NCBI GenBank assembly: GCA_009936995.1
Contig: JAACDH010000182.1
Coordinates: 1-42,320 of the forward strand
Reading direction: 5' to 3'
Source of the DNA: Rhodobacterales bacterium
Lineage (GTDB): Bacteria > Myxococcota_A > UBA796 > GCA-2862545
DNA length: 42,320 nt
How positions within the stretch are numbered: position 1 is the stretch's first letter; every line of letters starts with the position of its first letter. The position numbers and the translations under genes were made by a program. Shown piece after piece: positions 2,836-38,234 of the stretch. Below the pieces are notes generated by a model, which was given only the letters and a program-made list of their open reading frames with translations, did not search any database and was not told where the DNA came from.

Positions 2836-3900
2836 CTACTCGACCAGCGCCCCGCAGAACCCGTTTACCAGCGCACCGTAGAACGCCTCGCCTTCTTGCA
2901 CTTCGGTCTCCATCACGAACTCGTCGGGCCGGTGACTGCGCTCGCTTTTACCAGGACCGACCTTGATCCCAGGTAAACCGCGGAAGAAGACCAGGTCGGA
3001 CATCGTTGGAGAGCCGTACAGCTCGGACGCGGGTCGGGCAGCTTGGGCGGCCAGGACGACGCCGGCATCCTCTGGGCAGCTGAACGGATGCAACCGGTCG
3101 GAGCGAATACGCAGCTCGGTGCGGGTGGCTGCGGTGAGCTTGGTCACCAAGTCGGCGTGCGGCGACGTGGGCACGGTGCGAAGATCGACCACGGCATGCG
3201 CGTGATGAGGCGTCTGGTTCCTCACCCGTCCGCCGGTGAGGACCGTAGGTTGGAGCGTGGTTCCACCGAGATGTGCGTGGGCGGGTCCCAAGTCGACGTC
3301 GTGGATGGCGACCAGGTCGCGGGCGAGCTCGGTGATGGCGTTGGTGGCGCCCATGGCCGTGGCGTTGGCCGCGTGACAGGCGTCTCCGTGGCTGTGTAGC
3401 TCGAGCAGCAGCATGCCTTTTTGACTGGTGGCGATGTTCAGGCCGGTGGGCTCACCGACGACTACTCCGCGGGCATCCCAACCTTGTTCCTGGAGGATAG
3501 GCCATGCGAACTCCGTTCCCTTGCCGCCAGTCTCCTCTTCGCAGGCCAGCAGCAGACCCAGGTTAGCGCCGTTCTTCTTGGCGCGAATGAACGTGGCGAT
3601 CATGGCGGCGACGCTGGCCTTGGCGTCGTTTGCGCCCAAGCCGTATACCTTTCCGCCTTGAATCGTGACGTTCCACGGTTCGCGGGTCCAGGCCTCTGTG
3701 GGCGGCACGGTGTCGAGGTGAGAGTTGAGCACCAACATGGGGCCCTTGCCCGCGCGAGCAGCCACGTTGTCGCCGATTCGCTGTGTCTCTACGCCGTAAT
3801 CGCTCATGTAGGACTGGACGAAGTTGCAGATCTCTGCCTCGTGATGAGAGACGGACCGGATGGCGACGAGCCTGCGGTGGAGGTCGAGTACATCAATCAT
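2836..3900 (-). CDS. argE: M20 zinc deacylase, ArgE/LysK type (probable N-acylcitrulline or N-acylornithine deacylase)
   Basis: This is the last gene of the arginine operon, 354 residues, and its ATG overlaps the argB stop (ATGA). M20 metallopeptidase signatures are in order: NSHLDTVP (His61, Asp63), GANDAK (Asp92, bridging metal ligand), ACEEETGG (Glu121 catalytic, Glu122 ligand), VGEP (Glu150), and a C-terminal SERSHRPDEF with the last His ligand. A longer reading frame exists upstream, but it runs over argB. The ATG at 3900 gives the normal N-terminus. Because the operon encodes an acylornithine transcarbamylase, the natural substrate should be N-acyl-citrulline, giving citrulline for ArgG. 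The sequence does not show whether the acyl group is acetyl or succinyl. Distantly related M20 enzymes such as DapE cannot be excluded by motif alone, but the operon makes an arginine role very likely. Confidence 0.88.
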   Translation of the reverse strand: MIDVLDLHRRLVAIRSVSHHEAEICNFVQSYMSDYGVETQRIGDNVAARAGKGPMLVLNSHLDTVPPTEAWTREPWNVTIQGGKVYGLGANDAKASVAAMIATFIRAKKNGANLGLLLACEEETGGKGTEFAWPILQEQGWDARGVVVGEPTGLNIATSQKGMLLLELHSHGDACHAANATAMGATNAITELARDLVAIHDVDLGPAHAHLGGTTLQPTVLTGGRVRNQTPHHAHAVVDLRTVPTSPHADLVTKLTAATRTELRIRSDRLHPFSCPEDAGVVLAAQAARPASELYGSPTMSDLVFFRGLPGIKVGPGKSERSHRPDEFVMETEVQEGEAFYGALVNGFCGALVE

Positions 3901-4793
3901 GAGATTCCCTCGGTGCTGGGTAGTTTTGCCACCACAAGGGTGCCGGACCCCTCGTTGGTGAACACCTCTTGGAGGAGGGTGTCGGGCGCCTTGTGCGACA
4001 CCACATGAACCCGTTGAACGCCGCCGTTTAGGGCGTCTCGGAGGCAAGCTACCTTGGGCAGCATGCCATCTTTGAAGGCGCCTGCGGTCTGTAGTTCATC
4101 TAAGCCGTCGAGGTCTGTGAACACGACCAAGCTTTCGGGGTCGGAGGCATCGGCGAGCAGACCCGGCGCGCCGGTGATCAGCAGCAGCTTCTCGACCTTG
4201 AGGGCTCCTGCGATGCGGGCGGCGACCACGTCGGCGTTGACGTTGAGCACGTTGCCCATTTCGTCGGCGCAGACGGGACTAACAACCGGCAAATAGCCTT
4301 GGTCGAGCAGCGTCTTGAGGATGTCGACGTTGACGTCGGTGACGTCGCCGACCATGCCATAATCGACCGCATTACCTGCGGTGTCGGTGACCGGAGCGCG
4401 TCGTTCGGCCTGGATTAGGCCGCCGTCGACCCCAGACACACCGACTGCCTTCACGCCGGCTTTGCGGAACGCCGCGAGCAGACGGGTGCGGACCGAGCCA
4501 TTGAGCACCATGGCCGCCACTTCGAGGGTATCGGAGTCGGTCACCCGGCGGCCATCTACCTTCTGTACCTTGAGCCCGAGGGCCTGGCTGGTGCGGTTGA
4601 TCTGTGCACCACCCCCATGCACCAAGACCACCTTGATTCCCAGGCAATGGAGTAGGGCCACTTGGTCGATGAGGTCGGTGAGGTTCTCGTCGACGGCCTC
4701 ACCGCCCAGCTTGACCAGGAAGGTCTTGCCTTGGTAGAGTTGTAGCCAGGGAAGTGCGCCGCGAAGGGCGCGAACGAGGGGCGTTGTGGTCAT
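3897..4793 (-). CDS. argB: N-acetylglutamate (or N-succinylglutamate) kinase
   Basis: The protein has 298 residues and phosphorylates the gamma-carboxylate of N-acylglutamate with ATP, the second step of arginine synthesis. It has the amino-acid-kinase fold, with FLVKLGGEA (Lys28, Gly30-31), VLVHGGGAQI (Gly60-62), VGVSGVDGGLI, the NVNADVVAARIA substrate/nucleotide region and the LLLITGAPGLL strand. It starts at the ATG overlapping the argF' stop (ATGA at 4790-4793). An in-frame ATG 21 bases upstream would lengthen it but lies inside argF'. About 20 residues precede the first Gly-rich motif (VRALRGALPWLQLYQGK). Kinases inhibited by arginine carry such an extra N-terminal helix, while the insensitive E. 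coli type lacks it. Feedback control by arginine is therefore a reasonable inference. Confidence 0.95.
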   Translation of the reverse strand: MTTTPLVRALRGALPWLQLYQGKTFLVKLGGEAVDENLTDLIDQVALLHCLGIKVVLVHGGGAQINRTSQALGLKVQKVDGRRVTDSDTLEVAAMVLNGSVRTRLLAAFRKAGVKAVGVSGVDGGLIQAERRAPVTDTAGNAVDYGMVGDVTDVNVDILKTLLDQGYLPVVSPVCADEMGNVLNVNADVVAARIAGALKVEKLLLITGAPGLLADASDPESLVVFTDLDGLDELQTAGAFKDGMLPKVACLRDALNGGVQRVHVVSHKAPDTLLQEVFTNEGSGTLVVAKLPSTEGIS

Positions 4794-5794
4794 TTGGCCT
4801 CCAGCATGGACCACATAAGGGCCTTCTGGGCGTGTAGACGGTTTCCAGCTTGGAGCACTACTTTGCTCCGTTCGCTGTCAAGGACTGCGTCGGACACCAC
4901 GACATTGCGTCGGACCGGCAGGCAGTGGAGAAAGGAGGCCTCGGGACGGGTGGTTTCGAACCAGGAGGGTGTCACCGTCCAGTCGGGGTATTGGGCGCGA
5001 AGTTCCGCTTCGGCCTGGATATCTCCGTAGGCTTGGGCGGATCCCCAGGACTTTGCATAGAGGACATGGGCGCCTTCGAGATCGGCCCGGTCGTTGGATT
5101 CTTGCACGGAGCCTCCGCTGCGGACAGCCTCGCCTCGAATCTTGGTCATCATGGCGCTGGGAAGAGCGAAACCCTCGGGTCGGAGGATGGTCAGATCCAT
5201 GCCCCGTCGGGCCGCCATGCCGGCGACGGCGGCGGGCACGGCCATGGGCAGGGCCTTGGGATGATTCGCCCAGCTTAGAACGAACTTCCCGTTGGAGGGC
5301 ACCTTCAGGTCGTCGAGGGTCTTCCAGTCGGCGAGGGCCTGACAGGGGTGATTGGTGGCGCTCTCTAGGTTGATCAGCGGCTTGCTGGCGGCATCGGCGA
5401 AGGTGCCTAGGATAGGCTCGGACAGGTCGTGTTCGAGGTCCTTTCCCTGGGCAAAGCAGCGTACACCCAGCAGGTCGCAGTACTGTTCAAGCACCGGAAT
5501 CGCCTCGCGGACGTGCTCGGCGGTGTTGCCGTCCATCACCACGCCCGTCTGGGTTTCCAGGGCCCAGGTGCCGTTGCCTGGCTGAATGACGAAGCTGCTG
5601 CCGCCCAGCTGAGCGATGCCGGCCTGCATGCTGGCCAAGGTTCGCAGCGACGGATTGAGAAAGACCAGTCCGGCCACGCGACCTTGCAGTGTGGTGTGAC
5701 GCGGATTTTCCTGCAGGTAGCGAGCGCGGGAGAGGAGGCCCTGGATCTGGTCGTCCGAGAGGTCGGAGAGATCGAGGAAGCGGTTTAGGGTCAC
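4790..5794 (-). CDS. argF': N-acylornithine transcarbamylase, predicted succinylornithine type
   Basis: The protein has 334 residues and starts with GTG overlapping the argD stop (ATGTGA). It transfers carbamoyl from carbamoyl phosphate to an acylated ornithine. The carbamoyl-phosphate loop reads FLNPSLRT (residues 45-52) rather than the STRT of ordinary ornithine transcarbamylase, and the C-terminal active-site loop reads HCLPVRRN. Both are features of the AOTCase/SOTCase group (Xanthomonas, Bacteroides). The specificity loop reads MDGNTAEH with Ala at residue 92. X. campestris acetylornithine enzyme has Glu there and B. fragilis succinylornithine enzyme has Pro. Published swaps, as I recall them, show that Ala, Ser, Val or Pro at this place give succinylornithine activity. 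The flanking segment AIPVLEQYCDLLGVRCFA also looks more like the Bacteroides enzyme. The product, N-acylcitrulline, would be deacylated by the downstream argE. Confidence 0.93.
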   Translation of the reverse strand: MTLNRFLDLSDLSDDQIQGLLSRARYLQENPRHTTLQGRVAGLVFLNPSLRTLASMQAGIAQLGGSSFVIQPGNGTWALETQTGVVMDGNTAEHVREAIPVLEQYCDLLGVRCFAQGKDLEHDLSEPILGTFADAASKPLINLESATNHPCQALADWKTLDDLKVPSNGKFVLSWANHPKALPMAVPAAVAGMAARRGMDLTILRPEGFALPSAMMTKIRGEAVRSGGSVQESNDRADLEGAHVLYAKSWGSAQAYGDIQAEAELRAQYPDWTVTPSWFETTRPEASFLHCLPVRRNVVVSDAVLDSERSKVVLQAGNRLHAQKALMWSMLEAK

Positions 5795-6927
5795 ATCGAC
5801 TCCAGGGCGTGGGCGAGTTGGGCCACGTGGTCGGAGGTGAGGGTGAGGGGCGGCATCAGCCGAAAGACGTTCGGATCTGCGCTTCCGCCGACCAAAATAC
5901 CGTTCTCGCGCAGCGCGGTGATGACTTCGTTCGCGGGCACGTTGGTGCGCATGCCGACCAGCAGTCCTGCGCCTTGGATGTCGACGATGGGCCCCACCTT
6001 GCAGGTGTCTTGGATCTGCTGGTGCAGGTTGGCGGCGTGTTCGATGAGGTTGTTCTCCAAGACCTCTTCCAAGACGGCCGCCACCAGGGCCGTGGCCATG
6101 GGTCCACCGCCAAAGGTGGTTCCCAGGGTGCCTTTGGGGATGTCGGCGACCACGCGCGCGGACGTGACCACTGCTGCACAGGGGAAGCCGCCGGCGATGC
6201 CCTTGCCGAGGGTGACGATGTCGGGCATGCCACCGGCTGCGGCGCCAGAGATGGGGTATCCGCTGCGCCCCAGTCCGCACTGAACCTCGTCGGAGATCCA
6301 GACAGCGTCGGTGTTTTTACAGCGCTTCGCGAGGGTCTTCAGCATCTCGTTCGAGAGCGCTCGGGCGCCGGCCACACCTTGAACCGGCTCGGCGATGACC
6401 GCGGCCACGTCACTGTCGATGAGGTGGGCGAGCACATCGGGCTGGTCCCAAGGGGCCGTGACCACGTCGAATGGGGTGCGGGGGAGAGCGTACCAGCGCT
6501 TGTGGTTGGAGGTACAGGAAGCGGCGGCCGCGGTGCGCCCGTGAAAACCGCCTTCGAGCACCACAACCTTGGTCCGACCTGGGTTGAGTCGGAAGGCCAA
6601 GCGGAGGGCGTTTTCATTGGCTTCGGCGCCGCTGTTCACGAAAAACACCCGGTCGAGAGGCTGGCAGAGGGCACCCACCGCTTGCACGGCCTTGGCGCGG
6701 ACCGGGACGGTCACCAGGTTGGTCTGGAAGAACAGCTCGTTGGCCTGGTGGTTCAGGGTCTCGATGAGCTTGGGATGCCGATAGCCAAGGAGCGCCGTTG
6801 CATGTCCACCGTACAGGTCGAGGAAGGTTCGACCATCATCGGCGGTGACCGTGCAGCCCTCGCCAGAGACGATGGTGAGCCCCAAACGGTTGTAGACGGG
6901 GATCTCTTGGGCTTGGTTCAGATCCAT
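5791..6927 (-). CDS. argD: Acylornithine aminotransferase (PLP-dependent, class III)
   Basis: The protein has 378 residues and converts N-acylglutamate semialdehyde and glutamate to N-acylornithine and 2-oxoglutarate. The motifs fit the family: FLDLYGGHA near the start, VNSGAEANENALRLA (98-112), GGFHGRT (126-132), ISDEVQCGLGRSG (211-223) and TLGKGIAGG with the PLP lysine at Lys242. The chosen ATG gives the usual short N-terminus ahead of the IPVYNRLGLTIV strand and overlaps the end of argC by 10 bases. An ATG 60 bases further upstream (6987) is possible but would add 20 residues with no family counterpart. Coupled translation with argC is likely because there is no clear ribosome site in front of the chosen ATG. 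Confidence 0.95.
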   Translation of the reverse strand: MDLNQAQEIPVYNRLGLTIVSGEGCTVTADDGRTFLDLYGGHATALLGYRHPKLIETLNHQANELFFQTNLVTVPVRAKAVQAVGALCQPLDRVFFVNSGAEANENALRLAFRLNPGRTKVVVLEGGFHGRTAAAASCTSNHKRWYALPRTPFDVVTAPWDQPDVLAHLIDSDVAAVIAEPVQGVAGARALSNEMLKTLAKRCKNTDAVWISDEVQCGLGRSGYPISGAAAGGMPDIVTLGKGIAGGFPCAAVVTSARVVADIPKGTLGTTFGGGPMATALVAAVLEEVLENNLIEHAANLHQQIQDTCKVGPIVDIQGAGLLVGMRTNVPANEVITALRENGILVGGSADPNVFRLMPPLTLTSDHVAQLAHALESM

Positions 6928-7976
6928 GGGACGGCCGGGATGTGGAGTCCGAGAGAGGCGGGCCAGCCCGCTTTGCGGTTCAGCCATTGCAGGCCGCCGC
7001 CCACCGCGCCCTTGAGCAGATTGTCGATGACGCTGTGTACCACCACTTGGGTTCCTTGGACGGTCACCCCGATGCGTGCATGGTTGGTTCCCACGACATC
7101 CTTTAGTTTGGGCGGACCTTTGGTGATCTGCACCAGCTCTGTATGCGCATAAAAGTCGACGAAGCGTTGATGGAGCTCAGCGGCGTCGATCTCTGTGGTC
7201 AGGGTGGCGAAGATGGTGGCCGCCATGCCCCGAGAGAACGGTCCAGAGTGCGGTGCAAAGCTGACGTGCACGGGCGTGTCGCTCAGGTCGCTGAGCAGCC
7301 CCTCCATCTCGGGCGTGTGCCGATGGGTGAGTGGCTTGTAGCCCCAGAAGTTGCTCTGCCGATGGGGGTGGTGCGTGCCCGCCTTGGCGGCCTTTCCGCT
7401 CCCGGTCGAGCCGGTGACTGCCGAGACCTGAATTGCCGGCCGCACCAGGCCCATTAGGGGGGCCGCGCCTAGCACGGTGCAGGTGGTGAAGCAGCCCGGG
7501 TGGCCGATGTGTGGCGTTGTGGGCGTGGGACCGGGGAGGTCCGGTAGGCCGGTCGAGAACTGGGCCATCAGGGCTTGGGCGCCGTGCTTGCCGTACAGAG
7601 ACTCGAACATCTCTTGATTGTGTCGGAAGTCTGCCGATAAATCGATGGCGGTGACCGCGCGACCGGTGGCGCCGAGTCGTTCCAGGGCGTCTTGGATGAG
7701 CGCGGCTGAGTGTCCGTGTGGACCGCAGCTGATCAGCGCGATGGGCTTCGTTCCGGCGGCCACCAAGGGCGCGATGGCCTCCGCGGCGACCATCTGGACG
7801 CCCGGATAGACGTGCGTGAGGTGTGGAAAAACCTGGCCAATCGGGATGCCCGCGCTAGAGCGGCTGACCGCGGCGAGGAGGGTCAGGCGAGGGTGTTGGG
7901 CGATTAAGCGGAGGGCTTCAGCGCCGACGTAGCCGCTGGCAGACCACACCACGGCGTCCATGGTTTCACAGGTCAT
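6918..7976 (-). CDS. argC: N-acyl-gamma-glutamyl-phosphate reductase
   Basis: The protein has 352 residues and reduces N-acylglutamyl phosphate to the semialdehyde with NADPH. It has the N-terminal nucleotide motif ASGYVGAE (13-20), a LISCGPHGHSA segment, the IDLSADFR motif (111-118) and the active-site loop HPGCFTT with catalytic Cys162. The ATG at 7976 is preceded by GGAGAGG at a good distance and overlaps the end of the P-loop gene by 11 bases. An alternative ATG at 7961 would remove five residues and lacks a good ribosome site. The gene lies between the P-loop gene and argD in the operon. The sequence does not show whether the acyl group is acetyl or succinyl. Confidence 0.94.
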   Translation of the reverse strand: MTCETMDAVVWSASGYVGAEALRLIAQHPRLTLLAAVSRSSAGIPIGQVFPHLTHVYPGVQMVAAEAIAPLVAAGTKPIALISCGPHGHSAALIQDALERLGATGRAVTAIDLSADFRHNQEMFESLYGKHGAQALMAQFSTGLPDLPGPTPTTPHIGHPGCFTTCTVLGAAPLMGLVRPAIQVSAVTGSTGSGKAAKAGTHHPHRQSNFWGYKPLTHRHTPEMEGLLSDLSDTPVHVSFAPHSGPFSRGMAATIFATLTTEIDAAELHQRFVDFYAHTELVQITKGPPKLKDVVGTNHARIGVTVQGTQVVVHSVIDNLLKGAVGGGLQWLNRKAGWPASLGLHIPAVPWI

Positions 7977-9030
7977 GGAGCGCCTCTCCGGTGATGTGTT
8001 TCCAGATGTGGTTGGCCAGCACGTGGGGGTTCTGCATGGCGTTCGCCGAGAACACTGCCGTTTGCTCTGAGATAATATCGCAGCCCACCTTGTTGTCGGT
8101 GGCAGGCCCGGTGACGGCCGCGGGCTCGATGCCGAAGCGGTCACGGAGCAGGGTGACTGCACCCCAAGAGCCCACGGGATCGGCCGCACAGAGCAACACG
8201 GCGCTGAAGGCCTCGCGCAGATCGGCGCTGTCGAGGATGGCGTCGACGCCGTACGGTCCTAGGATGCCGTCGCCGAGCTCAAGAACGATGAGATCGGGCC
8301 GGTCTTTCGCCAGGTTGGTGAGGATGGCCCGCGAGACCGCAGCCGACTCCACGCGGGTGGTGGTGACTACACCAAAGTCGGTGAAAACAACGCTTCTGGT
8401 GGCACCGGAGTCCTCCATGGACAGCACGTCGCGGCTCAAGCTGACCCCCGTCGCCTTGCCCGACACCACCTTCAACCCCTTTCGGGCGTAGATCTGAATC
8501 AACGCCGCAGCGGCGGCCGTCTTTCCGGAGTTCATCGAGGTGCCGGCGATGGCCACGACGGGAACGTCGTTCAGGTTGAGCTGGCCGTCCATTGGCTGGG
8601 CATTTCGTTGAATATTCGCGGGCACACCTACCCGTTGACCGATGACCGGGAAGGTGAGCACTTGGCCGATGACCTCGCAGCGGAAGGGCTCGCCCACTTC
8701 GGGGGCCGCGTCGTCGCAGATACCGAGCACGCCGCCTAGGTTGAGCAAATTGACCACGTCTCCGACCTTGAGACTGGTGGGGCAGTGTCCGGCAAACCCA
8801 AGGAGCGCCGCCCGATGTCCGAGCGCACCGGCGATCACGTCGCCCGGCTTGAGGGTAGACATCCGACCCGACACCAGCTCGAGCTTGTTGTAGCGACTCT
8901 TGGAGGTGAGGATGCGGACGGCGACCACGTCTCCTTTATTGCAAGGCAGCTTATCGCTGACGTGAACCCGACGCTCCAAGTGGCAGTTGCGGGTGACGGA
9001 GGCGATCTTATCGAGGATGAGGGCCCTCAT
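7966..9030 (-). CDS. DUF1611-like P-loop protein inside the arginine operon (candidate glutamate N-acyltransferase)
   Basis: The protein has 354 residues. Residues 1-150 form a beta-rich domain with two similar turns, LKPGDVIAGALG and LKVGDVVNLLNLGG. Residues 155-354 form a P-loop domain with Walker A GTSMNSGKT (163-171), then SGKATGVSLSRD, MEDSGATRSVVFTDFGV and IVLELGDGILGPYG. The order GTSxNSGKT, K-x-TG, DxGA, DFxD/G, E-x-x-DG is that of the C-terminal domain of DUF1611 proteins. One DUF1611 member, DgcN, is reported to use acetyl-CoA to N-acetylate D-glutamate. The ATG overlaps the argG stop (ATGA) and its end overlaps argC, so it belongs to the operon. No argA, argJ or GNAT gene is present to make N-acylglutamate, so that first step is an attractive but unproven role. 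A GTPase/ATPase or regulatory role is the alternative. Confidence 0.7.
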   Translation of the reverse strand: MRALILDKIASVTRNCHLERRVHVSDKLPCNKGDVVAVRILTSKSRYNKLELVSGRMSTLKPGDVIAGALGHRAALLGFAGHCPTSLKVGDVVNLLNLGGVLGICDDAAPEVGEPFRCEVIGQVLTFPVIGQRVGVPANIQRNAQPMDGQLNLNDVPVVAIAGTSMNSGKTAAAAALIQIYARKGLKVVSGKATGVSLSRDVLSMEDSGATRSVVFTDFGVVTTTRVESAAVSRAILTNLAKDRPDLIVLELGDGILGPYGVDAILDSADLREAFSAVLLCAADPVGSWGAVTLLRDRFGIEPAAVTGPATDNKVGCDIISEQTAVFSANAMQNPHVLANHIWKHITGEALHDL

Positions 9031-10229
9031 TGTTGGCCAGCCCGTTGGTGCCACACCACGGGGAGGGCGAACAAGCGGGCGAAGCCCTTGGCGTCTTCGG
9101 GGGTCCACTCGCCGACGGCCTCGCCGTAGACGGCGCGGCTGGCGCTGCGCAGACTGTACGGCGATGACACGCCTTCGACGAAGACATTGCCGGTTCGAAG
9201 GGTGAACTTAACCTCGCCGGTGACGCGGTTCTGGGAGCTCAACATCAGCGCCTCGATGTCGCGGCAGGCGGGCTCGAAGTACAGACCCTGGTGGACCATG
9301 TCGCCGTATTTTGGGCCCAAGGTCTCTTTCAGAGAGATCTGACGACCCGTGAGGCACAGCTTCTCGAGCTCGCGGTGGGTCTGGATGAGCACGGTGGCGG
9401 CGGGTGCCTCGAAGGCCACCCGACCCTTGACGCCGAGAACGGTCTCGCCGAGGTGAATGCCACGACCAACGCCGAATTCTGACGCCATATCGTCGAGTCT
9501 CTCGATCAACGCGACGGGACCGAGGGCCTGGCCATCGAGGGCCACGGGGATGCCCGCCTGGAAGGCGAATGTGTGGGAAGTAGTCTTGTTGATTCGGTCG
9601 TAGGCGCCCGAGGTGCGCACCCACTGCGCTTCGGGGATGGAGTGCGTGGTATCGGTGGTCTCGACGCCGCCGATAGTGGTTCCCCAAAGGCCACTGTTTA
9701 CCGAGTAATTTGTGGTCTTCGGGTCTACTTGAAAGCCGCGATCCGTGAGGAACTTCGTCTCTTCCTCGCGAGACGGTGCCAGATCGCGGATGGGGGCGAT
9801 CATCTTCAGGTCGGGGGCCATGGTAGACAGGGCCACTTCGAAGCGGACTTGGTCATTACCGGCGGCGGTGCAGCCATGGGCCACGGCGATAGCACCTTTT
9901 TCACGGGCCATTCGGGCGACCTCCGCAGCTTGCAGCGAGCGCTCGGCGCCGACACACAGCGGGTACAGGTTGCCACGGAGCACGTTGCCCATCACCAGGT
10001 ACTTGAGCACGGTATCGAAGAACGTCTGGCGAGCGTCGATGAGGTGGTGTTCGGTTGCTCCGAGCTCTTTGGAGCGGTCGGCGAGGACCTTGCGCTCGTC
10101 GTCGTCGAGGCCACCCACGTCGACAGTGACGGTGATTACGTTCCAGCCTTGTTCCACGAGGTACGGCACGCACCAAGAGGTGTCGAGTCCGCCGGAGTAG
10201 GCCAGGGCAACGGTTCCGAGATTAGACAT
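9027..10229 (-). CDS. argG: Argininosuccinate synthase
   Basis: The protein has 400 residues, the usual family length, and joins citrulline and aspartate with ATP to form argininosuccinate. It has the PP-loop ATP motif LAYSGGLDTSW (9-19), the AHGCTAAGNDQVRFE segment that binds citrulline and aspartate, and the conserved NYSVNSGLWG stretch. The ATG overlaps the end of argR by 8 bases and has AGGAAG upstream. It is the first enzyme gene of the operon although it catalyses a late step, which is also the order I recall from Bacteroidetes arginine operons. The next enzyme of the pathway, argininosuccinate lyase (argH), is not in this window. Confidence 0.96.
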   Translation of the reverse strand: MSNLGTVALAYSGGLDTSWCVPYLVEQGWNVITVTVDVGGLDDDERKVLADRSKELGATEHHLIDARQTFFDTVLKYLVMGNVLRGNLYPLCVGAERSLQAAEVARMAREKGAIAVAHGCTAAGNDQVRFEVALSTMAPDLKMIAPIRDLAPSREEETKFLTDRGFQVDPKTTNYSVNSGLWGTTIGGVETTDTTHSIPEAQWVRTSGAYDRINKTTSHTFAFQAGIPVALDGQALGPVALIERLDDMASEFGVGRGIHLGETVLGVKGRVAFEAPAATVLIQTHRELEKLCLTGRQISLKETLGPKYGDMVHQGLYFEPACRDIEALMLSSQNRVTGEVKFTLRTGNVFVEGVSSPYSLRSASRAVYGEAVGEWTPEDAKGFARLFALPVVWHQRAGQQ

Positions 10230-10686
10230 GGGAGGCTTCCTGTTGAAGTGCGTCGAGGGTGTGGGCCACGCGGCGCTGTTGAGCGCGGCCGATCGTGGCG
10301 ATGAAGATGGTGTCGTCACCTGCGATGGTTCCGACGATGTCGGCCAACTTGCGGGCGTCGATGGCGAGGGCGACCAGGGATGCGGCGCCAGCCCGGGTAT
10401 GCACGACCAACATGTGATCGCCCGCTGGGGACGAGCGGATGATTCGCGCGAACGATGGATCGAGCTGGGGACGTTGAACTTCCGTGGGCGCGGGCAGCTG
10501 ATAGGTGCCCTCGCGCTTGAGGGCTCCGAGTGCGGATAAGTAACGACTAACGCTGGATTGCGTAACATCGTGTCCGCGCTCGCGGAGCAACTTGACCAGC
10601 GAAGACTGACTAGTGACCCGACGGCGGTTCAGCCATTGGCGGAGCAGTCGGAGGCGCGCATCTCGTTGGTGTTGTTCGGCTGGCAT
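10222..10686 (-). CDS. argR: Arginine repressor ArgR
   Basis: The protein has 154 residues, the normal ArgR length. The N-terminal winged helix-turn-helix includes TQSSVSRYL (42-50) as recognition helix. The C-terminal oligomerisation and arginine-binding domain has the signature GTIAGDDT (119-126), whose Asp pair contacts the guanidino group of arginine. It is the first gene of the operon and ends inside argG, so the repressor is probably made with the enzymes it controls. A perfect inverted repeat 20-49 bases before its ATG is the likely operator, which would give autoregulation. Confidence 0.94.
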   Translation of the reverse strand: MPAEQHQRDARLRLLRQWLNRRRVTSQSSLVKLLRERGHDVTQSSVSRYLSALGALKREGTYQLPAPTEVQRPQLDPSFARIIRSSPAGDHMLVVHTRAGAASLVALAIDARKLADIVGTIAGDDTIFIATIGRAQQRRVAHTLDALQQEASHV

Positions 10687-33795: not shown

Positions 33796-35886
33796 TTAGT
33801 GACCGAGGAACGCCCAGCCTACAGCGTCGTCGCCGGTGCCGTCTTCGGCGGAGATGGCCAGCATGATGCGATCGGCATCGGCGTGGATGGCAACCCCGGT
33901 GGGCGTCAGGGTACGGTCGGCGTTGATGGGGAAGATCGTCTGGGCGAAGGTTCCCGCGTTCGGGTCTCCGTGCAACATCATCACTTGGGAGGCGCCATCG
34001 TCGATCACGGCGGCGATGTACAACAGGCCGTCGTACAGGATGGCGTCGGCGTGGAGGATAGGGAAACTGGACAGCACGCGGTGGGTCTGACTACCGTCGA
34101 CGATGAGGAGACCGGTGGATGGGGCGAGCACCCAGATACCGTCGTGCGAGCTGGTGTGGGTGAACGAGTCTGTGCTCCAGTCTTGGTCTACTGTGGCGGT
34201 GATGGCGCCGCCGTCGGCGGCCAGGGTTTGGCAACCTGCCGAATCGCACGCCGTGGCGGTGCTGGTGCTGTTATTGGCGCTGTTGATGAAGATGTTCTCG
34301 GCGCCGATGAAGCTCTGTTCTGCGCCGTCGTACAACCCGGAGGTGCCGTCGCCGTGGAGCACATGCACCCGGTCGCCACCGGTGGCCCACGCCCAAGCGT
34401 TGTCGGCGTTGTCGAGGGGGAGGTCGACGTTGGTGGCCGTGTAGGACGAGTTAGCCGTCCTCACGTCGGTCGCGCCGTTGACGTATTCGCTGTCAGCGGT
34501 GCGATAATTGTAGCTCTTGGCGATAAGGAAGGTCTGATCGGTTGAGGTGCGCGTGTAGACCGTGCTGGCCCAGAACTTGTCGCCTGATGCGACCACATCG
34601 ACCGCTTCGCCGATGGGGTCTTCGCTGGTCTGGCCCTGCCAGATGATGGCTCTATCGAAGTAATCGGCGTCGGCGCCGGCCGTGCGTTCGAACGCGAGGG
34701 CCACACCAGCGTTGGTGTTGGGGATGCCGTTGCCCTCGAAGTTGTCTGCGGCGGAGACCAGTATGAAGTGACCGGTGGTTCCGGCGATGGCGGGCGGACG
34801 GGGGGCTGTCCAGAGGAGATCGGCGTAGCCGAACGGCGCCGTGTTTTCGTCGCCGTCGCAGTCGGTGTCGATGCCGTCGTCGATAGACTCGAGCATGTCG
34901 GGGTTGATGGTGGCGTCGGTGTCGATGCAGTCGCCGACCTGGGTGTCGCCGGTGTAGCCCCATTCGGCGACGAAGATGTCATAGCTAGCGGAGTCCGCTG
35001 CACGGATCCAGCCGTCGGCGTCTTGGTCGAAGTCGTTTTGGCCATCGCAGTCGCTGTCGGCGCCGTCGTACCAGGTGTCGCTGGCACCGGGGTTGGCGGT
35101 GCTGTCTTCGTCGCGGCAGTCGCCCCAGTCGGCGCTGCCGAAGCTGGCGGGTGCTACGCCGTCGTGGAAGGCGTTCAGGAAGTTATTGTAGTCGCTGCCG
35201 TAGGTGGATTCGTCCGGCATGTAGCCGTCGGCGTCTTGGTCGAAGTCGTTGTTGCCGGCGCAGTCGGTGTCGGTGCCGTCGTACCAGACGTCGTCGGGGG
35301 CGCCGCCATAAGTGGTGTGGTCGAAGTCGTCGCAGTCGGTGAAGGTGCCGGTTGCGGTGATGCCCCAGAGCTCGGTGTAAGCGGCATAGTCGGACTCGTA
35401 TCCGGGCGGCATATCGCCGTCGACGTCGACGTCGTAGTCGTTATCGCCCGCGCAGTCGGAGTCGAGCCCGTCGTAGGGTAGGTCACTGACTTTGTCGGGG
35501 AAGATGTTTTGTGCTTCCGCGATGATGTTGGGATCGTCTGCACAGTCGACCACGTCGGCCCTGACGCCGGTGGGCCACTCGACGCCGTCGTTGAGGGGCG
35601 TCCACTCGGACTTCAGCAGACCTGGGTAGCTGTCGCCATCGACGTCGACCAAGTCGGAACCGTCGCAGTTGTTGTCGATTCCGTCGTACGGAATTTCTTC
35701 GAGCAGCTGTGATCGGGTTGCGTCGTTATCGTCGCAATCCTTTTCGCCTTTGGTCACGCCGTCGTTGTCTTCGTCCAAGAGGTCGAAGTGCTCTTCGAGG
35801 TCGGCTTGGGTGACGTATGTGCAGCCCACACCGAGTGCGAGCAGCGCAGAGATAGAGAGGAGGCGTGCAGAGGTACCTGGATTCAT
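33796..35886 (-). CDS. Large MopE-like lipoprotein (downstream paralog)
   Basis: The protein has 696 residues. The ATG overlaps the stop of the upstream paralog (ATGA). Lipobox LGVGC gives Cys22, followed by TYVTQADLEEHFD. Residues of about 35-340 contain five or so units of the form 'YDG-D-[ST]-[DN]-C-x-G-x-ND-F-D-x-D-x-DG', each spaced by 50-75 residues with further DCxD motifs; these match MopE/'putative metal-binding motif' repeats and EF-hand-like calcium loops. Residues 340-696 form a strand-rich domain that looks like a beta-propeller or lectin fold (VLVSAADNFEG, VHVLHGDG, IWVLAPSTG) and ends in VGWAFLGH. The function is unknown. Surface metal binding or adhesion is plausible. Confidence 0.82.
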   Translation of the reverse strand: MNPGTSARLLSISALLALGVGCTYVTQADLEEHFDLLDEDNDGVTKGEKDCDDNDATRSQLLEEIPYDGIDNNCDGSDLVDVDGDSYPGLLKSEWTPLNDGVEWPTGVRADVVDCADDPNIIAEAQNIFPDKVSDLPYDGLDSDCAGDNDYDVDVDGDMPPGYESDYAAYTELWGITATGTFTDCDDFDHTTYGGAPDDVWYDGTDTDCAGNNDFDQDADGYMPDESTYGSDYNNFLNAFHDGVAPASFGSADWGDCRDEDSTANPGASDTWYDGADSDCDGQNDFDQDADGWIRAADSASYDIFVAEWGYTGDTQVGDCIDTDATINPDMLESIDDGIDTDCDGDENTAPFGYADLLWTAPRPPAIAGTTGHFILVSAADNFEGNGIPNTNAGVALAFERTAGADADYFDRAIIWQGQTSEDPIGEAVDVVASGDKFWASTVYTRTSTDQTFLIAKSYNYRTADSEYVNGATDVRTANSSYTATNVDLPLDNADNAWAWATGGDRVHVLHGDGTSGLYDGAEQSFIGAENIFINSANNSTSTATACDSAGCQTLAADGGAITATVDQDWSTDSFTHTSSHDGIWVLAPSTGLLIVDGSQTHRVLSSFPILHADAILYDGLLYIAAVIDDGASQVMMLHGDPNAGTFAQTIFPINADRTLTPTGVAIHADADRIMLAISAEDGTGDDAVGWAFLGH
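35010..35292. repeat. Coding repeats of the MopE-like units (downstream paralog)
   Basis: Stretches of about 65 bases at 35010-35077 and 35226-35292 are nearly identical, sharing GCCGTCGGCGTCTTGGTCGA and the following AGTCGTT. They encode the 'WYDGxDxDCxGxNDFDQDADG' unit. Similar stretches recur in the upstream paralog at about 37211-37276, 37463-37525 and 37686-37750, so recombination between the two genes is possible. Confidence 0.75.
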
Positions 35887-38180
35887 GGAGACCAACCGAA
35901 GAAAACCCAACCGACGGAGTCTTGGAACGCTGCAGATGCATCGGTCCCGCTCACGCCGATAAAGAGTCGACTTTCGTCTGTGTGGATACTGGCCGCGGTC
36001 GGCACCAAATTGGGTCGAAGCGGATCTTCGTAGGAGATAACTTTTTCGGTGAGGGCGCCCGAGGGGTCTCCGTAGGCCAAGATGACCCGCGGACCCAGAC
36101 CGTCGTCGATCAAAGGTTCGCCGACGCCAATGACGTAGATGAGATCGTCTGAGCCGTCGGCGTTGGTGTCGCGCCAGTCGGCGTCGATGGAGTCGAGCCG
36201 GTAGTCGGTGAGGACGTTGATCGTGGGCATGGGGCCCATAATAGTGGCGCCGGGTGCGGCGTCGAGGACGTGGTGGTAGCCCTCGCGGTGGGTTGCGTAG
36301 GTGAGCTGAGTGCCGGACCAGTTTTGCGTGGCGGACATCGTGAGGGTGTCGACGTTGACGTTGAAGTCGTACATGACGCAGTCGGCGACGTCGCAGAGCA
36401 CGAGCTGACCGATGCCGGTGTTGGTGTTGGGCACGCTATCCCAGAAGCACATGCCGCCCGGAACACCTTCGGGAAGCGCGGGGGTGGGCGATAAGGATGC
36501 GTCGTGGGTGGAGGTGGGGGCGGCGGCCGAGCCGTAGAGGGCCTGCACGGTGTCGAGGCCGCAGCTGACATTCCAGGGCCCTCCGTCGTCGTCGAGGACG
36601 AGGTCGACGGCGAGGCCGGTGTAGGCGGTGCCTACGATCGACCACTGGAACACGTCTTGGATGTAGCCCTGCAAGATGTTGTTGTACATCATCCGCTTGC
36701 TGGAGATGTACCCATTGGCGCCGTCGAAGACGTAGCTGGCGCTGCCCCAAAAGGATTCGCCATCGGCTGTGAGGTCGACCGCGTTGCCCAGGGGAAGAGC
36801 GTTGGAGAGGCCCAACCACATGATGCTGTCAATGGTCTGTGCATCGTAGCCAGCGGTGAGGTCGAAGGTGAGCGCCGCGGCGACGTGATCGGGCTGCGTC
36901 ACGCCTAGATCTACTTGATCGGCTGAGGTGACCAATACATAGTTGTAGTTGGTGACGTCGACCCGTGGTGGACGAGGATTTACCCAGACCAAATCATCGA
37001 ACCCGAACGGCGTGGCGTCGCCGTCGCCGTCGCAGTCGCTGTCGGCGCCGTCGTCGAACAACTCGAGGGCGCCAGGGAAGGTGGTGCTGTCGCCGTCGTC
37101 GCAGTCGTTGTACGCGGGAATGGTCCCGGTGCTCCAGATGGCCTCATAGGCGTCCCAGGTGGCGGATTGGTCGGGGTCGCCGTTGCCAGTGCCGTCGGTC
37201 AGGAACATCACCCCATCGCCGTCTTGGTCGAAGTCGTTGTCGCCTGCACAGTCGCTGTCGATGCCGTCGTACCAGACCTCGCCGGTGATGTTTTCCGGGT
37301 AGACATCGGCGCCGAGCACGGGGGCTCCGGTTTGGTCGGTGACCGTGGTGTCGTTGTCGAGGCAGTCGCCCCATAGGATGGGCCAAGGCGAGGTTCCGTT
37401 GTGGAACGCGCCGATGAAGTTGTCGAACATGTTTTCGTAGCTGGTTTGCTCGGGCATGAAGCCGTCGCCGTCTTGGTCGAAGTCGTTGAGGCCATCGCAG
37501 TTGGTGTCTTCGCCGTCGTAGGCGACGTCGTCGGACAGGGCGCGACCGGGGTGAATACTGTCGTCGAGATCCATGCAGTCGCCGTATTCTGGGGCGCCGT
37601 AGTCGTAGCCCCAAACTGCGATATAAGCGTCGTATGCGGCGGGAACGGCGATGGTGACTCCGTTGACGATCACGGTGTCCGGCATGTAGCCGTCGCCGTC
37701 TTCATCGAAGTCGTTCTCGCCGCCACAGTCGCTGTCGATGCCGTCGTAGGGCACGTCGTTGCTGTTGCTGGGGAAGATGTCGCGAGCGTTGGTGAACACG
37801 GCGGGATCGTCGGCGCAGTCGAGGGGGCCGGTGGCCACGGAAGCTGGCCAGGTGGCGTCGGGATTGTTCGCCTGGTACGCCTCTTGGGTGATGCCCGGGA
37901 AACCATCGCCGTCGGCGTCTAGAAGGTCGCCCTTATCGCAGTCGTTGTCGTAGCCATCGTAGGGAATCTCTTCAAAGTTAGGCGACACGTTCGGGTCAAA
38001 GTCGTCGCAGTCTTTGTTGGGGCCGTCGTAGGGGGCGCCATCGTTGTCGTGATCGAGGGAAGAACGCTTTTGTTCGAAAGCGTCCTGGCCGATATAGCTG
38101 CATCCCGTGAGTGCGAGTGCGACGGCGATGCCGACAGGCATTAATTTCGCGACCACGCTGACCTTCCTTCGCAGGTGCAT
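35883..38180 (-). CDS. Large MopE-like lipoprotein (upstream paralog)
   Basis: The protein has 765 residues; the ATG at 38180 has GGAGG five bases upstream. Lipobox ALTGC gives Cys27, followed by SYIGQDAFEQ. It has the same layout as the downstream paralog: acidic Cys-containing repeats in the first half (IPYDGYDNDCDKGD, VPYDGIDSDCGGENDFDEDGDGYMP, VAYDGEDTNCDGLNDFDQDGDGFMP, VWYDGIDSDCAGDNDFDQDGDG) and a strand-rich second half. The two proteins share the block 'PTxxxIHxDxxR' and the end VGWxFxG. They are clearly a tandem duplication, now well diverged except for the repeats. Both lie downstream of the tlyA-ispA-exb cluster but with their own ribosome site and a 54-base gap. Confidence 0.82.
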   Translation of the reverse strand: MHLRRKVSVVAKLMPVGIAVALALTGCSYIGQDAFEQKRSSLDHDNDGAPYDGPNKDCDDFDPNVSPNFEEIPYDGYDNDCDKGDLLDADGDGFPGITQEAYQANNPDATWPASVATGPLDCADDPAVFTNARDIFPSNSNDVPYDGIDSDCGGENDFDEDGDGYMPDTVIVNGVTIAVPAAYDAYIAVWGYDYGAPEYGDCMDLDDSIHPGRALSDDVAYDGEDTNCDGLNDFDQDGDGFMPEQTSYENMFDNFIGAFHNGTSPWPILWGDCLDNDTTVTDQTGAPVLGADVYPENITGEVWYDGIDSDCAGDNDFDQDGDGVMFLTDGTGNGDPDQSATWDAYEAIWSTGTIPAYNDCDDGDSTTFPGALELFDDGADSDCDGDGDATPFGFDDLVWVNPRPPRVDVTNYNYVLVTSADQVDLGVTQPDHVAAALTFDLTAGYDAQTIDSIMWLGLSNALPLGNAVDLTADGESFWGSASYVFDGANGYISSKRMMYNNILQGYIQDVFQWSIVGTAYTGLAVDLVLDDDGGPWNVSCGLDTVQALYGSAAAPTSTHDASLSPTPALPEGVPGGMCFWDSVPNTNTGIGQLVLCDVADCVMYDFNVNVDTLTMSATQNWSGTQLTYATHREGYHHVLDAAPGATIMGPMPTINVLTDYRLDSIDADWRDTNADGSDDLIYVIGVGEPLIDDGLGPRVILAYGDPSGALTEKVISYEDPLRPNLVPTAASIHTDESRLFIGVSGTDASAAFQDSVGWVFFGWSP

Positions 38181-38234
38181 TTGACCTCCATCGGGGTACT
38201 GTAGCATGCCAACACCCAGATGACTTTATTGTGT

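Follow-up and report, generated by a model that had tools for sequence, protein, structure and literature searches.

A gene within a bacterial arginine operon, here called X, probably encodes the enzyme that transfers an N-succinyl group to L-glutamate. X sits inside arginine operons, displaces the known first enzymes of arginine synthesis across genomes and accompanies a transcarbamylase of the N-succinylornithine type, and from these three observations we infer a role as N-succinylglutamate synthase; the reaction, the acyl group and the donor are each read from this context. Arginine synthesis is among the most conserved pathways of bacteria, and glutamate N-acylation opens it; no description of the X family was found in the literature searched. 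The window, the whole stretch of 42,320 nucleotides analysed, carries the following features, all on the minus strand.

2836..3900, minus strand: M20 deacylase, the argE' candidate for late acyl removal in the pathway (Pfam/NCBIfam)
3897..4814, minus strand: argB, stand-alone N-acylglutamate kinase of ~300 amino acids with no GNAT domain (NCBIfam)
4790..5794, minus strand: argF', knotted acylornithine transcarbamylase (NCBIfam), Ala/Pro/Val at the diagnostic positions, the N-succinylornithine type by the rule of PMC4581275
5791..6987, minus strand: argD, acylornithine transaminase (Pfam/NCBIfam)
6918..7976, minus strand: argC, N-acylglutamyl-phosphate reductase (Pfam/NCBIfam), overlapping X by 11 bases
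7966..9030, minus strand: X, proposed L-glutamate N-acyl (N-succinyl) synthase, ATG start, 354 amino acids
8266..8280, minus strand: E251-L-G-D-G255 of X (residues 251-255), a Walker-B-like segment
8428..8457, minus strand: K192-A-T-G195 ... D201 segment of X, K192 aligned with the beta-2 lysine of BioD and MobB
8518..8544, minus strand: P-loop GTSMNSGKT of X, residues 163-171
9027..10229, minus strand: argG, argininosuccinate synthase (Pfam/NCBIfam), overlapping X by 4 bases
10222..10686, minus strand: arginine repressor gene argR (Pfam/NCBIfam)

The genes run argR-argG-X-argC-argD-argF'-argB-M20(argE'), and their Pfam and NCBIfam identities agree with the sequence-only reading, which had listed argB, C, D, F', E and G and described X as locked into the operon: the argG stop codon and the ATG of X share the bases ATGA, and the last codons of X run across the argC start at 7976. 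The operon covers all other steps as far as argG, the deacylase included, and only argH and the first enzyme are absent. That reading had also seen no argA, argJ or GNAT gene for glutamate N-acylation, and in the window's own genome (77.8% complete) searches for ArgJ, the NAT domain of NAGS-kinase and ArgA found none; the sole TIGR01890 match there is ArgB itself. Elsewhere in the window, at 33796-38207 on the minus strand, lie two neighbouring large open reading frames with MopE-type copper-binding motifs.

Occurrence of X and displacement of the known first enzymes

Among 142 genomes from relatives of the window, X turned up in 53, or 51 after dropping two (G081 and G085) that hold only a remote paralogue, giving an X-positive set of 51 and an X-negative set of 91 among the 142 genomes of the window's phylum. 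Most X loci examined in this phylum place the gene between argG/argR and argC/argD, and one genus (G026, G043 and G056) has it near argG without argC. When a public genome collection was scanned with a single sequence, the peptide patterns were too specific and gave zero matches; an alignment query, a profile built from 48 X proteins of the window's relatives, gave at least 581 candidate stretches. The best 80 of these at least 581 loci were kept, all of them from metagenome bins, as are nearly all X carriers seen, and they are titled mainly Gammaproteobacteria (Woeseiaceae, Steroidobacteraceae, Chromatiales), Acidobacteriota and Armatimonadota. X lies inside an arginine operon in 80 of these best 80 loci, together with argC (79), argG (78), argR (76), argD (73), argF (70) and argB (66). 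Because all 80 loci come from other groups and show the same operon, chance is not an issue: the gene is real and conserved. Two gammaproteobacterial X operons examined also have argH after argB. X accompanies argC, argD and argB in G037 and G078 as well, although the best transcarbamylase of each genome is OTCase-like, and its association with arginine genes is independent of transcarbamylase type. One bin titled Klebsiella pneumoniae (L119; CAMCBU010000002.1) carries a Steroidobacteraceae-like X operon, and the title is almost certainly a mislabel.

Displacement was assessed by searching the same 142 genomes for three known types of first enzyme: ArgJ, ArgA and, through its NAT domain, the fused NAGS-kinase. 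A known first enzyme of these three types is present in 2 of 51 X-positive versus 63 of 91 X-negative genomes (Fisher p ~1e-15, a value that ignores genome relatedness and is descriptive only). The two exceptions (G014 and G068) are contaminated bins, large in size and with 6% contamination, in which a second argC lies beside ArgJ on other contigs. Most of the 28 X-negative genomes that have no known first enzyme are also without a convincing argC, as expected for auxotrophs or incomplete bins. Across the 40 X-positive genomes of other groups, the searches returned no ArgJ, no NAGS-kinase NAT domain and no ArgA over the cut-off, the only strong match in the ArgA search being to the ArgB kinase. 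Weak generic GNAT matches (E 1e-4 to 1e-11, to the C-terminal part of TIGR01890) do appear in some X-positive genomes, scattered and outside the operon.

X-negative genomes with an acylornithine-type transcarbamylase could pass for counterexamples, and we rejected them as such, since contig ends or a fused NAGS-kinase explain all but one. Five of their operons are broken by a contig end (G006, G032, G055, G059 and G070), and the genomes of family f16 and a few others have the fused NAGS-kinase instead, the ArgB contig being missing in G129. The remaining genome, G067 (90% complete), was searched and neither X nor a known first enzyme was found; an ATP-grasp LysX/ArgX-like gene (L194, 9613-10446) stands directly before its sole argC fragment at a contig end, which suggests a LysW-type route or a mis-binned contig. 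X excludes ArgA, ArgJ and NAGS-kinase, and the pattern is strong in two independent genome sets. The earlier proposal that X is arginine-specific and takes the place of the missing first enzyme is thereby supported, known first enzymes occurring in 2 of 51 and 0 of 40 X-positive genomes.

Fold, conserved residues and a possible catalytic route

An AlphaFold2 model of X built from 28 sequences (pLDDT 94.2, pTM 0.90) features an all-beta N-terminal domain (about residues 1-135) followed by a C-terminal P-loop alpha/beta domain. The best PDB fold matches are dethiobiotin synthetases (E ~1e-6, TM up to 0.59 on the target), FtsY/SRP54 and HypB; these matches are generic, and the C-terminal domain as modelled is a SIMIBI-class P-loop fold with a Walker A motif. 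The N-terminal domain folded alone (pLDDT 90) had no PDB match, and a comparison of X with the sequences of solved structures likewise gave none. Among profile libraries, the best Pfam models are CbiA, MobB and DUF1611, all under their curated cut-offs, and no NCBIfam model scores above its cut-off; the Pfam and NCBIfam scans of X contain no GNAT family, and ArgJ (PF01960) does not match it.

The sequence-only reading had assigned the C-terminal domain of X the layout of DUF1611, and this stands in part. The quoted motifs are present (D-S-G-A occupies residues 207-210) and the P-loop half is remotely related, as hhalign against six true DUF1611 proteins shows (88.8%, E 2.5e-6, ~92 columns), two of those reference proteins having been scanned, matched to the DgcN model and found to adjoin a DgcA-like racemase gene. 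Membership itself we rejected: X scores 17.8 bits against the DUF1611 (PF07755) cut-off of 25, over residues 148-190, the best relative scanned reaches 22.1, and the N-terminal domain has no homology to the family. The DgcN model (NF041892) matches neither X nor its relatives, whereas true DUF1611 proteins of the same phylum do match it. Only profile columns 152-256 of X, in the P-loop half, align with DUF1611, which upholds the earlier suggestion of a different N-terminal domain and a separate, arginine-specific branch. The corresponding hhalign values for Escherichia coli MobB (62%) and BioD (43%) are, like that for DUF1611, single comparisons and not calibrated searches, made with one sequence each against six for DUF1611. 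X is best described as a new family that is remotely akin to DUF1611/DgcN in one domain.

Over 76 alignment rows of X, 57 positions are at least 98% identical, and they are spread across both domains. Those of the P-loop domain are G163, M166, G169, K170, T171, K192, D201, D207, D218, E251, D254, D284, T311 and D312, and those of the N-terminal domain include Y47, E51, R56, R73, D91, N97 and R133. With this distribution, X looks like an enzyme whose active site would lie between the domains. We propose that it would catalyze the first committed step of arginine synthesis by placing an acyl group, most likely succinyl, on the alpha-amino group of L-glutamate, serving as an N-succinylglutamate synthase in place of GNAT-fold or ArgJ enzymes, and that ArgB, ArgC, ArgD, ArgF' and the M20 deacylase would then process the protected intermediates. 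The acyl donor may be bound through its phosphates at the P-loop/Mg2+ site, which is invariant in the C-terminal domain, and glutamate and the acyl carboxylate may be held with the help of invariant residues in the N-terminal beta domain. DgcN reportedly carries out acetyl-CoA-dependent N-acetylation of glutamate, which makes an acyl-CoA the first guess for the donor; by this analogy we lean toward succinyl-CoA, and succinate plus ATP via succinyl-phosphate, as in dethiobiotin synthetase, would be a distinctly less likely source.

In dethiobiotin synthetase and the CobB/CobQ enzymes, a carboxyl or carbamate group is activated so that an amine or ammonia can attack it. X could accordingly be an ATP-dependent succinate-glutamate ligase, a donor variant of the main proposal in which a dethiobiotin-synthetase-like P-loop domain joined to the unmatched beta domain would phosphorylate succinate (or another carboxylate) and transfer it onto glutamate in an acyl-CoA-free first step. 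Dethiobiotin synthetases head the fold matches, and X has invariant residues in its P-loop (GKT), at D201/D207/D218 and at E251. The equally invariant K192 is aligned to the beta-2 lysine found in BioD and MobB, where DgcN relatives have G-T-G-Q-T; this BioD-like lysine is what keeps an acyl-phosphate route in contention. By sequence profile, however, DgcN is closer to X than either BioD or MobB is, and the phosphates bound by the P-loop could just as well be those of CoA; we regard the ligase as a tentative option on the unlikely side. Were it correct, an acyl-CoA-free succinylated arginine pathway would span Gammaproteobacteria, Acidobacteriota, Armatimonadota and the window's phylum.

Relatives of X also occur outside arginine operons. 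One set, X2 (L045, L050 and L070), is ~30% identical to X over its full length (hhalign 100%), and we set it aside as a second copy of X because it is a paralogue found outside arginine operons. Two such relatives, X2 in G081 (L050) and a gene on a Priestia megaterium plasmid (L173), adjoin an M20 deacylase, and N-acyl addition followed by later removal may be a general theme of the X family, a suggestion from gene neighbourhoods.

The surroundings of these genes vary. In L050 (7808-12294; G081), X2, an M20 peptidase, a flavin reductase and an FAD amine oxidase stand side by side, and in L045 (7850-8884) X2 adjoins a membrane methyltransferase gene. The X-like P-loop gene of the Priestia megaterium plasmid (L173 3899-4960; NZ_CP085446.1, 88630-89691) belongs to a cluster with an ornithine carbamoyltransferase, two ATP-grasp proteins, a split TPP enzyme, an M20 metallopeptidase, an LLM oxidoreductase and a member of the PEP mutase family, which looks like a phosphonate natural-product cluster with a possible amino-group acylation/deacylation pair. 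On three Rhodobacterales plasmids (L171, L172 and L174), X-like genes annotated as DUF1611 lie directly before ABC transporter genes; that of L174 is annotated 'dethiobiotin synthase', and in two of the three an alpha/beta hydrolase gene precedes the X-like gene. True DUF1611 (DgcN-like) genes at L178 2124-3206 and L180 404-1468 adjoin a gene for a DgcA-like enolase-superfamily racemase, pairs that represent a D-glutamate pathway in the window's phylum.

Transcarbamylase type and the acyl group

Three residues separate N-acetylornithine (E92, N185, K302) from N-succinylornithine (A/S/P/V/Q, P, V/I/E) transcarbamylases, with positions 92, 185 and 302 in the numbering of the X. campestris AOTCase (PMC4581275), and S, P, A or V at the first position brings a preference for succinyl (PMC7311316). 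The window ArgF' has A, P and V at these positions, in keeping with the rule for N-succinylornithine transcarbamylases. We located the positions by the motifs MDGD-x-x-EH, HP-x-x-L-x and RRN-x-x, a placement that depends on the two reference sequences. Outside the NAGS-kinase group there are 103 loci, 98 with X on the same stretch and five broken off before X. The first position is Glu in 0 of 103 of these X-type loci (A 86, V 8, Q 5, P 3, S 1), the second is Pro in 102 of 103, and the third is variable (V 50, A 30, I 12, K 9, E 1). NAGS-kinase operons, by comparison, have E, N and K in eight of eight, mostly from one family, so that the contrast may reflect few evolutionary events. On the simplest reading, X operons would run on N-succinyl intermediates; with an ArgF' of the N-succinylornithine type, the product of X is probably N-succinyl- rather than N-acetyl-glutamate, which amends the analogy with the acetyltransferase DgcN drawn in the sequence-only reading.

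A synthase that instead makes N-acetylglutamate from acetyl-CoA, with the transcarbamylase residues a quirk of lineage, would fit operon position and displacement equally well, and the nearest named relative, DgcN (NF041892), is called an N-acetyltransferase in NCBIfam. The window ArgF' has an acetyl label in NCBIfam too, scoring 361.6 bits with the N-acetylornithine carbamoyltransferase model (cut-off 288). This label does not contradict the succinyl type, because the model is not known to tell acetyl from succinyl enzymes, and a Bacteroides succinyl transcarbamylase was misannotated as acetyl in Swiss-Prot (PMC7311316). Set against the acetyl product are the succinyl-type residues at all three positions of the window ArgF' and the uniformity of X-type loci at two, and we judge it rather improbable.

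In the gammaproteobacterial X-positive genomes (including those of L094 and L128), a search for a close relative of the M20 deacylase found none. DapE is a desuccinylase and could be a candidate for late deacylation there.

X might otherwise be an ATPase with an accessory or regulatory role in the operon, and an unrecognised GNAT elsewhere would make N-acylglutamate. The activity of X is a prediction, some X-positive genomes have the weak generic GNAT matches described above, and there are known GNAT-type synthases like BT3761 (PMC7311316). Such a clean exclusion of ArgJ, ArgA and NAGS-kinase is nevertheless not expected from an accessory protein, the 57 conserved residues over both domains are enzyme-like, and the GNAT matches are scattered rather than in the operon, all of which makes this a poor prospect. 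That X is an N-acylcitrulline deacylase, removing the acyl group, would suit the gammaproteobacterial X operons, which have no M20 deacylase, but we rejected this as scarcely credible given that X and an M20 deacylase occur together in the operons of the window and of Armatimonadota, that a P-loop domain is an odd amidase scaffold and that the enzymes displaced are first-step enzymes.

Comparison with known systems

According to a 2015 review, glutamate succinylation had no identified gene (PMC4490483), and the sole later candidate found in the literature searched is of the Bacteroidetes BT3761 type (PMC7311316). If X is an N-succinylglutamate synthase, it would be a second, unrelated family for glutamate succinylation, present in at least 581 candidate genome stretches; it would extend the succinylated arginine pathway well beyond Bacteroidetes, bring a new fold into the N-acylglutamate synthases and close a gap in annotation because of which many uncultured lineages seem dependent on arginine.

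DgcN and other DUF1611 proteins share with X a P-loop alpha/beta domain of the same broad class, and both occur in deacylase- or racemase-linked neighbourhoods. Their motifs differ, however (GTCMNAGKT, KATG and ELGDG in X against GTDSAVGKRTT, GTGQT and EGQGSL in DUF1611), and true DUF1611 genes of the same phylum adjoin DgcA-like racemase genes whereas X lies in arginine operons. The sequence-only reading called for a structural comparison with DgcN; the DgcN/DUF1611 structures 7xrj, 2g0t and 2obn are absent from the 50 best fold matches of X. The DgcN pathway is mentioned in PMC10845958 and PMC12363236.

BioD, MobB and CobQ/CobB share the fold, the P-loop, the beta-2 lysine and a Walker-B-like acid with the C-terminal domain of X, but they lack full-length homology to it, and X has an extra N-terminal beta domain that finds no match in the PDB. 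ArgA, ArgJ and the bifunctional NAGS-kinase (TIGR01890, PF01960 and PF04768) occupy the same place in the pathway and are mutually exclusive with X across genomes, yet they have no sequence or fold relation to X, which stands beside a stand-alone ArgB.

A functional parallel is BT3761, which we take to be a GNAT-type protein; X, with no GNAT match and another fold, would be its non-homologous replacement. BT3761, from Bacteroidetes, is an N-succinylglutamate synthase candidate more than 50% identical to Cabys_1732, and the same inferred reaction heads a succinylated arginine pathway that likewise includes a succinyl-type transcarbamylase (PMC7311316).
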